Source of the DNA: Erwinia sp. E_sp_B01_1
GTDB lineage: Bacteria; Pseudomonadota; Gammaproteobacteria; Enterobacterales; Enterobacteriaceae
Length of the DNA: 64,000 bases
Reading direction: 5' to 3'
NCBI RefSeq assembly: GCF_036865545.1
Contig: NZ_CP142208.1
Location: 372,001-436,000, forward strand
Shown here: one piece after another, positions 30,241-35,034 of the stretch
Position numbering within the stretch: position 1 is the stretch's first letter
Layout of the letters: every line of letters begins with the position of its first letter
Notes under the pieces: generated by a model
The model's database searches: none
Told to the model about the DNA's origin: nothing
What the model saw: only the letters and a program-made list of their open reading frames with translations
Translations under genes and position numbers: made by a program

Positions 30241-30389
30241 GGTCGCTGATTTAACGCCTTTTTCTGTAAGTCCCGGAAAATACGACAGTTAAACTGAATC
30301 GTATCAGCTACGGGTTTGGTGCCTTGCGTACAGCCTGTAAAAACAATGCTATGGTAAATGACAGACCAACGACCTTCAGGAGCGTTTGC

Positions 30390-31670
30390 ATGCAGGCTGG
30401 TAATGTGAAATGGATAAATCATCTTCGTTTGCCCTGGCGTGAAGGGCTGTGGCAAATCGAAATCAACGACGGCAGGATTGCCCGAATCTCACCTCAGACC
30501 CAATCCCGGCCCACCACGGACTCGCTGGATGCGGAAGGCGGCCTGGCTTTTCCACCGTTCATTGAACCTCATATCCATCTTGATACCACCCAGACCGCCG
30601 GTGAACCCGCCTGGAATGAGTCCGGTACGCTGTTTGAAGGCATTGAGCGCTGGGCAGAGCGCAAGGCGTTGCTGAGCCATGAAGATGTTAAGCAGCGGGC
30701 AAAGCAGACGCTTAAATGGCAGATTGCCAACGGCATTCAGCATGTGCGTACCCATATCGACGTGTCAGATCCCACACTGACGGCGCTTAAAGCGATGCTG
30801 GAAGTGAAAGCAGAGATGGCACCCTGGGTGGATATTCAGCTGGTGGCTTTCCCACAGGAGGGCATCCTCTCTTATCCGGACGGTGAAGCCCTGCTGGAAG
30901 AGGCATTGAAGCTGGGGGCAGATGTGGTGGGGGCGATCCCACATTTCGAGTTCACGCGCGAATATGGCGTGGAGTCCCTGCATAAAACCTTCGCGCTGGC
31001 GCAAAAATACCAGCGGATGGTGGATGTGCACTGCGATGAGATTGATGATGAGCAGTCCAGGTTTGTTGAAACGGTAGCGGCCCTGGCGCTGCGCGAGAAA
31101 ATGGGCGAGCGGGTGACGGCCAGCCATACCACCGCCATGCACTCCTATAACGGGGCTTATACCTCGCGCCTGTTCAGACTTCTGAAGCTTTCTGGCATTA
31201 ACTTTGTCGCTAATCCGCTGGTCAATATCCATCTGCAAGGCCGTTTTGACACCTATCCAAAGCGCCGGGGGATCACCAGGGTCAAAGAGATGCTTGAAGC
31301 GGATATTAATGTCTGCTTTGGTCACGATGACGTGTTTGATCCCTGGTACCCGTTGGGAACGGCGAACATGTTGCAGGTTCTGCATATGGGGCTGCACGTC
31401 TGTCAGCTGATGGGGTATGGGCAGATCGACGCCGGTATTAACCTGATTACCCATAACAGTGCCCGGACACTGCAACTTAAGGATTACGGCATTCAAACCG
31501 GGAACAGTGCCAACCTGATTATTCTGCCTGCTGAAAACGGCTTTGATGCTCTCCGGCGTCAGGTTCCGGTGCGGTACTCAATCCGCCAGGGGAGGGTGAT
31601 AGCCGAAACGCAGCCGGCAGAAACGCTGATCCACTTACAGGAAAGTGAGAAGGTAGATTTTAAAAGGTAA
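30390..31670 (+). CDS. codA: Cytosine deaminase
   Basis: CodA turns cytosine into uracil and ammonia for pyrimidine salvage, in the cytoplasm. The 426 residues (E. coli 427) keep the metal and catalytic residues: HIHLD (His61, His63), HCDEIDDE (His214, Glu217) and [15 protein letters not shown] precedes the chosen ATG by seven bases; the frame is open upstream to 30324 without homology. In E. coli codA follows codB far away; here it stands alone, reversed, between nirB and tsgA. Confidence 0.96.
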
Positions 31671-33194: not shown

Positions 33195-33767
33195 ATGTTA
33201 AAACGTACTTTGACAGCCGTTGCTACCCTTCTCGCGCTGTCCACAGTCTCCGCTTCTGCACTGGCAGCAAAAGGGGATACTCATGTGTTATTGACGACTT
33301 CAGCTGGCAATATCGAACTGGAACTTAATAATCAAAAGGCCCCTGTTTCGACAAAGAATTTCGTTGATTACGTCAATAACGGCTTCTACAACAACACCAC
33401 TTTCCACCGCGTCATCCCGGGCTTTATGGTCCAGGGCGGCGGCTTTACCACGGATATGCAGCAGAAGCCCACTAACGCGCCGATCAAAAATGAAGCGGAC
33501 AATGGTCTGTTGAATAAGCGCGGCACGATTTCTATGGCCCGTACGGCGGACAAAGACAGCGCTACCAGCCAGTTCTTTATCAACGTAGCGGACAATGCTT
33601 TCCTCGATCACGGACAGCGTGACTTCGGCTATGCCGTCTTCGGCAAAGTGGTAAAAGGGCAGGAGATTGCCGACAAAATCTCTCAGGTTCAGTCGCAGAA
33701 CGTCGGCCCTTACCAGAATGTTCCGGTTAAGCCGGTGGTGATCCTTTCCGCAAAAGTCCTGCCTTAA
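33195..33767 (+). CDS. ppiA: Periplasmic peptidyl-prolyl isomerase A (cyclophilin)
   Basis: PpiA speeds proline isomerisation during folding in the periplasm. The 190 residues match E. coli. A signal peptide ends near Ala24 (ALA-AKG), followed by the cyclophilin core with [29 protein letters not shown] and the C-terminal strand. The ATG at 33195 follows AAGGAATC; the upstream open frame is not homologous. Confidence 0.97.
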
Positions 33768-33790
33768 TCTCCCAACGGGTGATTGCTGCT

Positions 33791-33796
33791 TATAAT
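33791..33796 (+). promoter_or_regulatory. Candidate -10 element for fic
   Basis: TATAAT occurs 69 bases before the fic ATG, without a good -35 at 16-18 bases. A small hairpin GCGACC/GGTCGC (33815-33830) lies between it and the gene. Both are read from sequence; function is a guess. Confidence 0.3.
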
Positions 33797-33864
33797 AAGT
33801 GCAGTAACTTGCACGCGACCTGGAGGTCGCATTTCGCAGCAGTCACCACGTTCCGGGAGTCAGC

Positions 33865-34425
33865 ATGTCCAAAAAGTTCACCGATAAGCAAAAACTAGCC
33901 CTCTGGCAGCAAAGGCAGGAAGCCAATTTCTTTGCCAGTTTCGCCCTGAGCGGTGCCACGCTGGATCCGGGTAATGGACATCCAGGTTTACCTCATTTAC
34001 GTGCACTCCATCGCGCACTGTTCCATGACGTCCTGGAGGATGCCGGAGAACTGCGTCGGGTTGATATCGTGCTTGGCGACACCCCCTGCTGCCATTTCGA
34101 ATATATCGAAAAAGAGGGCAATTCACTGATGCAGGCGCTGGAAGATGAAAATGGTCTGGCCGATCTGCCTCTGGATAAATTCACTGAACGCCTGGCCTGG
34201 TATTATTGCGAGCTGACGGTGCTGCATCCTTTCCTGCGTGGCAATGGCCGCACGCAACGTTTGCTGTTTGAGCAGATCGTTATTCAGGCCGGTTATGATA
34301 TTCAGTGGAAGAAAACAGACAGCGACAGTTGGAAAGAGGCTAACCGCGCCAGCCTGGAAGGGGATCTGAGTTTACTCACCGCCGCGTTTGGCAAAGTGGT
34401 AAGCGAACGGCAGGAAAATGCGTAG
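33865..34425 (+). CDS. fic: Fic-domain protein with a YhfG-like N-terminus (apparent YhfG-Fic fusion)
   Basis: Fic proteins usually transfer AMP from ATP to target proteins, and YhfG is the small antitoxin encoded just before Fic in E. coli. Here one 186-residue protein starts SKKFTDKQKLALW..NFFAS, which resembles remembered YhfG (KKLTDKQKSRLW..NFQAS), and passes after about residue 40 into the Fic core (GLPHLRALH, TPCCHFEYIEKEGNSLMQ). The first 50 or so Fic residues and the YhfG tail are absent. The inhibitory SxxxE(G/N) motif reads SFALSG (25-30), so Glu is Ser. The Fic motif is HPFLRGNGRTQR (121-132): His and GNGRxxR are kept, but the usual metal-binding Asp/Glu is Arg. The upstream motif reads EDAG where WAG is common. 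No separate yhfG is seen. pabA follows after 33 bases, as in E. coli. Confidence 0.85.
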   Translation: MSKKFTDKQKLALWQQRQEANFFASFALSGATLDPGNGHPGLPHLRALHRALFHDVLEDAGELRRVDIVLGDTPCCHFEYIEKEGNSLMQALEDENGLADLPLDKFTERLAWYYCELTVLHPFLRGNGRTQRLLFEQIVIQAGYDIQWKKTDSDSWKEANRASLEGDLSLLTAAFGKVVSERQENA

Positions 34426-34458: not shown

Positions 34459-35034
34459 ATGCTACTGCTTATCGATAACTACGACTCTTTTACCTGGAAT
34501 CTTTACCAGTATTTTTGCGAGCTGGGGGCTGAGGTAGAGGTTCACCGTAACGATGAAATTTCGCTGGCGCAGATTGCGGATTTACAGCCGGAGCGGCTGG
34601 TGATTTCACCCGGGCCTTGCACGCCAGATGAGGCGGGGATTTCTCTGGCCGCTGTCCGTGAGTTTGCCGGGAAGATGCCCATTCTGGGCGTTTGTCTTGG
34701 ACATCAGGCCATCGCACAGGCTTTCGGCGCTCGTGTAGTGCGTGCGCGTCAGGTGATGCACGGGAAAGTGTCGGCTATTGAACATAACGATCGTGGCGTG
34801 TTTGCTGGCCTGAACCATCCGCTAACCGTTACCCGTTATCATTCGTTGATAGTGGAAACGGCCTCGCTGCCGGAAGCGTTCGAGGTCACGGCATGGACAC
34901 TCTCCAACGGAGAACCGGATGAGATCATGGGCTTTCGTCACCGTCATTTACCGCTGGAAGGCGTACAGTTTCATCCTGAAAGCATCCTCAGCGAGCAGGG
35001 GCATCAACTCCTCGGTAATTTCCTGAAAGCGTGA
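34459..35034 (+). CDS. pabA: Aminodeoxychorismate synthase, glutaminase subunit
   Basis: PabA supplies ammonia from glutamine to PabB for 4-aminobenzoate and folate. The 191-residue class I amidotransferase (E. coli 187) has the nucleophile Cys79 in [14 protein letters not shown], the [12 protein letters not shown] loop and the His-Glu pair in VQFHPESIL. It lies 33 bases after fic and 84 before argD, the order seen in E. coli. Confusion with TrpG is unlikely because of the context. Confidence 0.95.

Follow-up and report, generated by a model that had tools for sequence, protein, structure and literature searches.

One reading frame for antitoxin and toxin

Can an antitoxin and its toxin become a single chain, and what would such a chain do? 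This question is raised by an open reading frame (ORF) in a 64,000-nucleotide stretch of the genome of Erwinia sp. E_sp_B01_1 (NZ_CP142208.1, positions 372,001 to 436,000), hereafter the window. The ORF occupies positions 33865..34425 (186 amino acids plus stop; this and all other features given here lie on the + strand), starts with ATG and is preceded by GGGAG. It joins the inhibitory helix of the antitoxin YhfG to a shortened Fic core, and this merger of antitoxin and toxin is conserved and recurrent.

The original prediction, made from the letters of the DNA, held that the ORF begins like YhfG and continues as Fic, and a Pfam search confirmed this. Both domains scored above their cut-offs in the same ORF, YhfG (PF10832, cut-off 22.6 bits) with 31.2 bits at residues 3-46 and Fic (PF02661, cut-off 24 bits) with 54 bits at residues 44-138; the predicted fold matched Fic as well. 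The suggested search of the first 40 or so residues against YhfG gave 33.8 bits for PF10832 on residues 1-42 alone. The NCBIfam model PRK10347 (Fic) was matched with 209.8 bits against a cut-off of 181. For YhfG, the model PRK10204 was matched only at positions 2-31 of 55, with 30.6 bits and thus below its full-length cut-off of 77, as is expected of a truncated YhfG copy. The nearest solved relative is E. coli EcFicT (5jfz_A, 185.6 bits), and EcFicA (YhfG) matches residues 3-33 weakly (E 0.03). In the whole genome (one contig, 4.8 Mb), a single YhfG-family match and a single Fic-family match were obtained, both from the fused ORF, so that one ORF stands in place of separate antitoxin and toxin genes.

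Residues 1-30 (33865..33954) derive from YhfG/EcFicA and comprise the antitoxin inhibitory helix. The YhfG-invariant residues K4, T6, K8, Q9, W14 and S25 are all retained in 13 of 13 Erwinia-type rows. Residues 31-186 (33955..34422) correspond to EcFicT from residue 45 onward (residue n of the fused protein being EcFicT n+14), and the DPY segment and helix alpha-1 are absent. The Fic-derived sequence therefore begins at about residue 31 and not, as had been proposed, at about residue 40.

Origin and conservation of the Erwinia-type fusion

The fused ORF sits in the interval between ppiA and pabA, where ficTA is usually found in enterobacteria (PMC5033356). At the same place, five of the 35 other genomes of the genus (loci L011-L015) carry a separate yhfG (56 amino acids) overlapping a fic gene (196-197 amino acids). 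Relatives of this kind had been named beforehand as an observation that would refute the initial proposal. They do exist. Together with the unfused outgroups they reveal which state is older, but they are no evidence of decay, since the fused form is also shared and under constraint.

The fusion consists of YhfG 1-30 joined to Fic 45 onward, with a net loss of 202 nucleotides relative to each of L011, L013 and L015 that also takes up the frame difference between the overlapping genes. Lost were the second helix of YhfG and the DPY segment and alpha-1 of Fic. Since the antitoxin contacts mainly alpha-1 in solved class I complexes (PMC8401265), the deletion took away the very helix on which the antitoxin docks. 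The comparison shows that an in-frame deletion in an ancestor of the Erwinia lineage joined antitoxin helix and Fic core.

The fusion occurs at full length and with an open frame in nine genomes of the genus, this one included, the other eight copies showing 70-82% identity. Carriers include Erwinia sp. 198, Pantoea sp. BAV 3049, Pantoea sp. IMH, E. oleae and E. phyllosphaerae and, by source name, E. billingiae and Erwinia sp. P7711. We computed omega (dN/dS) with the codon model GY+F3X4, because pS is near saturation in pairwise pN/pS of the Erwinia type. A value of 0.118 was obtained for the Erwinia type (9 rows), with 0.156 for the N-terminal part and 0.105 for the core; unfused proteins gave 0.099 in Erwiniaceae (8 rows) and 0.085 in Enterobacteriaceae (11 rows). 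Low dN/dS and conservation across relatives, both put forward as marks of function, were thus observed. In a pabA tree, for which 19 of 30 loci yielded pabA, the nine fused loci cluster (82/84) on the Erwinia side (100/99). The analysis shows that the merged chain has been held under purifying selection since the fusion.

Recurrence of YhfG-Fic fusions

Beside the Erwinia type, termed F1, we found four other YhfG-Fic fusions (F2-F5), of which F4 and F5 are rarer. F2 (194 amino acids) occurs in Enterobacter (hormaechei, bugandensis, huaxiensis and chengduensis by source names), F3 (199-200) in Buttiauxella, Dryocola and Scandinavium, F4 (212) in P0051 and P0200, the latter labelled Erwinia sp. 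CPCC 100877, and F5 (195) in P0148. In all types Fic starts at about the same residue, just ahead of the equivalent of EcFicT TIELGP, and the length of YhfG kept varies. Genome searches gave YhfG matches in 158 of 392 genomes of the family and in 33 of 394 genomes of the order; fused status was given only to loci that were actually read, which are a part of these matches. The 12 fused loci of other genera that were read all lie in the ppiA-pabA interval or beside pabA. A long open frame was rejected as a sign of fusion, several such frames having proved to be separate genes on reading. Genus g66 contains F2, F3 and unfused members, and g168 contains F2 and unfused members; loci L041, L047, L093 and L094 of g66 display two fusion types and separate genes at one place within a single genus.

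In a tree of the Fic core (73 rows, 144 columns, the R0, metal and R1 columns being left out), F1 groups with unfused Erwiniaceae (97/91), F3 (itself 78/81) with unfused P0144-P0149 (100/98), and F4 with unfused L054 and L071 (100/88, 100/93). The fewest changes on the best tree are five. Once closer unfused relatives and two further types were included, the 73-row set rejected a single origin of all five types (approximately unbiased test, p-AU 0.0019) and gave a p-AU of 0.043 for F3+F4 and 0.194 for F2+F3, values that are somewhat too strong because the groups were named after the tree was seen; a shared origin of F2 and F3 is hence possible. In the first sample (79 rows), a single origin of F1, F2 and F3 was not rejected (p-AU 0.245), and F2+F3 gave 0.52.

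Omega was 0.135 for F2 (4 rows; N-terminal part 0.272) and 0.115 for F3 (7 rows). When column entropy of the helix was compared with that of separate YhfG, a significant correlation was observed in F3 only (rho 0.63; F1, rho 0.28, p 0.15; F2, rho 0.28, p 0.14).

According to PMC5033356, FicT subgroup 2 lacks five N-terminal residues and is hydrophobic at R1; the same source reports an Enterobacter subgroup whose N-terminus is distinctive and lacks the usual tyrosine. This description fits F2 by genus, length and R1; the text examined, figures apart, does not recognise antitoxin sequence there. Literature searches, which covered titles and the abstracts shown, returned no description of a YhfG-Fic fusion. 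In two E. coli-type proteins, P0022 (233 amino acids) and P0023 (252), YhfG runs on into a nearly complete Fic; these look like recent strain-level events.

Active site and inhibitory motif

Distinct sequences were tallied for the Erwinia type (18), F2 (26), F3 (31), F4 (2), F5 (1) and unfused proteins (193), with 20 outgroup or unplaced rows, 11 partial or other rows, the two E. coli read-through rows and Izhakiella P0017 set aside. The Fic motif HPFLRGNGRTQR (residues 121-132, 34225..34260) contains His121, Leu124 (R0), Arg125 at the metal position, Arg129 (R1) and Arg132 (R2). It departs from the AMP-transferase motif HxFx(D/E)GNGRxxR by the predicted Arg in place of D/E; the His, GNGR and the final Arg are present. 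The His, R1, R2 and the loop Asn are each retained in all 18 Erwinia-type sequences. The metal position is Arg in 13, Lys in two, His in two and Thr in one, hence basic in 17/18 and D/E in none.

Around the nucleotide site, three substitutions are fixed in the Erwinia type (18/18 each). Thr118 (34216..34218) replaces the Asn three before the His, present in 192/193 unfused sequences (exception, P0114); the equivalent N133 of VbhT hydrogen-bonds adenine N3 (PMC3667792). Cys75 (34087..34089) replaces the flap Phe, likewise present in 192/193 (exception, P0097), which packs on adenine (PMC8401265). Leu57 (34033..34035) stands at the pocket position of EcFicT F71, which is F or Y in 193/193. The proposal of a better nucleotide-binding end combined with a worse metal site thus held in part. 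R1 and R2 are kept, but two adenine-contact residues are replaced; the metal-position residue is changed, but instead of a worsening this may be a replacement by a basic residue of the kind seen in BepC.

The inhibitory motif is degenerate. SFALSG (residues 25-30, 33937..33954) does not conform to the antitoxin motif (S/T)xxxE(G/N) and, as had been noticed at the outset, carries Ser29 in place of the inhibitory Glu, which is present in 34 of 35 separate YhfG proteins and in none of the 18 Erwinia-type sequences. At this position F2 has Glu followed by Lys (25/26; Lys-Lys in one), F3 has Asp (31/31), F4 Glu-Ile (2/2) and F5 Asp-Pro (1/1), so that none of the five types keeps E(G/N). Ser25 and Trp14 are retained in 36/36 rows examined of the three main types. 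F3 loci including L078, L093 and L103 display a third active-site make-up, which combines Asp at the Glu position with a Val metal site and a GSGR in which R1 is retained. Loss of the R0 Arg as an obligatory partner of fusion was tried and rejected, since F4, F5 and Izhakiella keep it; three of five independent pairs are also too few for significance (p 0.25).

Possible function of the fused protein

At a probability of roughly 45%, we favour the reading that the Erwinia form is a neofunctionalised single-chain Fic that grips phosphate, not adenine or Mg, and is neither a toxin-antitoxin switch nor a canonical AMPylase. The former antitoxin helix would now be a structural part of the Fic domain, lying over the face left by alpha-1. 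With its Glu gone, this antitoxin-derived part seems no longer to act as an inhibitor. The site retains the catalytic His and a phosphate grip (GNG loop, R1 and R2), with two adenine contacts and the Mg ligand gone and the Mg position basic. Because of this combination, the ligand would carry phosphate, would most likely be other than Mg-ATP and would probably be bound without metal, part of it being transferred or cleaved.

Several observations weigh against this reading. The N-terminal helix is placed with low confidence. Its predicted local distance difference test score (pLDDT) is 57 at residues 21-30 in the better AlphaFold model, whose alignment included unfused rows; a model built from fusions only was of poor quality (63) and had the helix running along alpha-1 when aligned (5jff_C 17-196). 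The R0 Arg persists in F4, F5 and Izhakiella. P0017 (Izhakiella australiensis by source name), an Erwinia-type fusion relative on a long branch beside the Erwinia type, has Ser for the catalytic His (SPFRRGNGRTLR). In the unfused locus L077, whose YhfG is separate, the Glu is missing (SCRLAG), as are the metal ligand and both adenine contacts: its Fic has HPFRAGNGRVQR, and the flap Phe is replaced by Tyr and the adenine-contact Asn by Phe. Since L077 shows these losses together, they need no fusion, and such joint losses may mark loss of catalysis. Finally, 22 of the 35 other genomes of the genus gave no orthologous match at the locus, and the gene is therefore dispensable.

The main rival, which we regard as somewhat unlikely, is a pseudoenzyme, a folded and non-catalytic Fic that binds a partner protein or nucleotide like BepC. 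The basic metal-position residue is shared with BepC, a protein in which no catalytic activity was found (PMC8401265), and the lost adenine contacts, the missing His of Izhakiella and the set of losses in L077 would all suit it. Retention of His, R1 and R2 in 18/18 sequences speaks against it. It is improbable that the chain acts as a deAMPylase. A fusion fits a toxin-antitoxin complex working as one enzyme, such as the Fic-1-AntF deAMPylase complex of Pseudomonas (PDB 8wt0), but the essential AntF Glu28 of that complex (PMC13327609) has no equivalent in 18/18 Erwinia-type sequences, in which the adenine contacts are changed as well. With Glu in 25/26 F2 and Asp in 31/31 F3, the idea is more open in those types.

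That the ORF is a decaying, functionless deletion product, one of the possibilities first raised, is unlikely to a similar degree. Its motifs are degenerate, 22 of the 35 other genomes of the genus gave no orthologous match, and Izhakiella and L077 have comparable losses; the frame is nevertheless open in 9/9 genomes, omega is about 0.12 over nine rows, the substitutions are lineage-fixed, and comparable fusions are kept in other genera. Least probable is a de-repressed AMPylase, always on after loss of the Glu, since the Mg ligand and two adenine contacts are lost and magnesium is reported to be indispensable for Fic AMP transfer, even though His, R1 and R2 are kept and exchange of the Glu for Gly yields active proteins in each of the three Fic classes (PMC3667792).

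A broader proposal, which we consider doubtful, is that these proteins represent a new kind of Fic: the inhibitory helix would be a core element replacing alpha-1, the Erwinia pocket would be rebuilt for a metal-free, non-adenine phosphate ligand, and merger up to five times at one place would imply that enterobacterial Fic has the toxin-antitoxin unit, not the free toxin, as its physiological form. E. coli Fic founded the Fic family, and its activity is unknown (PMC5033356). Repeated natural fusion suggests that Fic and antitoxin function together as a unit. The fused proteins distinguish removable parts (DPY lock, alpha-1, inhibitory Glu) from retained ones (His, R2, loop). As single-chain targets for ligand screens and structures they open a new way to approach the role of the founding E. 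coli Fic, long a puzzle, and could make that question testable.

Genomic setting

The upstream neighbour ppiA (33195..33767) was matched by NCBIfam PRK10903 with 387 bits and the downstream neighbour pabA (34459..35034) by PRK06774 with 364 bits. Alignment of fused and unfused loci revealed a candidate -10-like box, GATTGCTGCTTATAATAAG (33781..33799), the form GCTTATA[A/C]T occurring in 8/9 fused and 2/3 unfused loci aligned; a sigma-70 scan of the region found no promoter. Elsewhere in the window, a cytosine deaminase gene (30324-31670, +; PRK09230, 869 bits) lies between tsgA and a gene that we take to be nirB. The genes nirB and tsgA are adjacent in E. coli.

Comparison with known systems

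The closest known system is class I EcFicT-EcFicA, the Fic-YhfG pair of E. coli (PDB 5jff, 5jfz), which shares the homologous parts, the ppiA-pabA place and the Fic fold. It differs in having two genes, a complete antitoxin with SRRLEG, and the DPY segment and alpha-1; EcFicT is hydrophobic at the metal and R1 positions, whereas the fused protein has Arg at both. As in class II, the inhibitory-helix sequence lies N-terminal in the same chain, and an alignment with FICD spans the whole predicted model. Unlike class II proteins such as FICD and SoFic, the fused protein is class I-derived and lacks the inhibitory Glu and Fic residues 1-44 including alpha-1. In Bep3/1, Bep3/2 and Bep4 of Bartonella, too, an antitoxin sequence is fused to the N-terminus of a Fic derived from class I (PMC8401265), so that the YhfG-Fic merger is not a new category; these are secreted effectors of a separate lineage. 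BepC (PDB 4wgj) resembles the fused protein in its basic metal-position residue with phosphate-binding residues kept, its Lys contacting the alpha-phosphate apparently with no divalent cation (PMC8401265). The two belong to separate lineages, and the fused protein has lineage-fixed Thr118 and Cys75 and carries an antitoxin helix. The basic residue (17/18) together with R1 and R2 (18/18) is a feature in common with BepC, not a sign of common descent.
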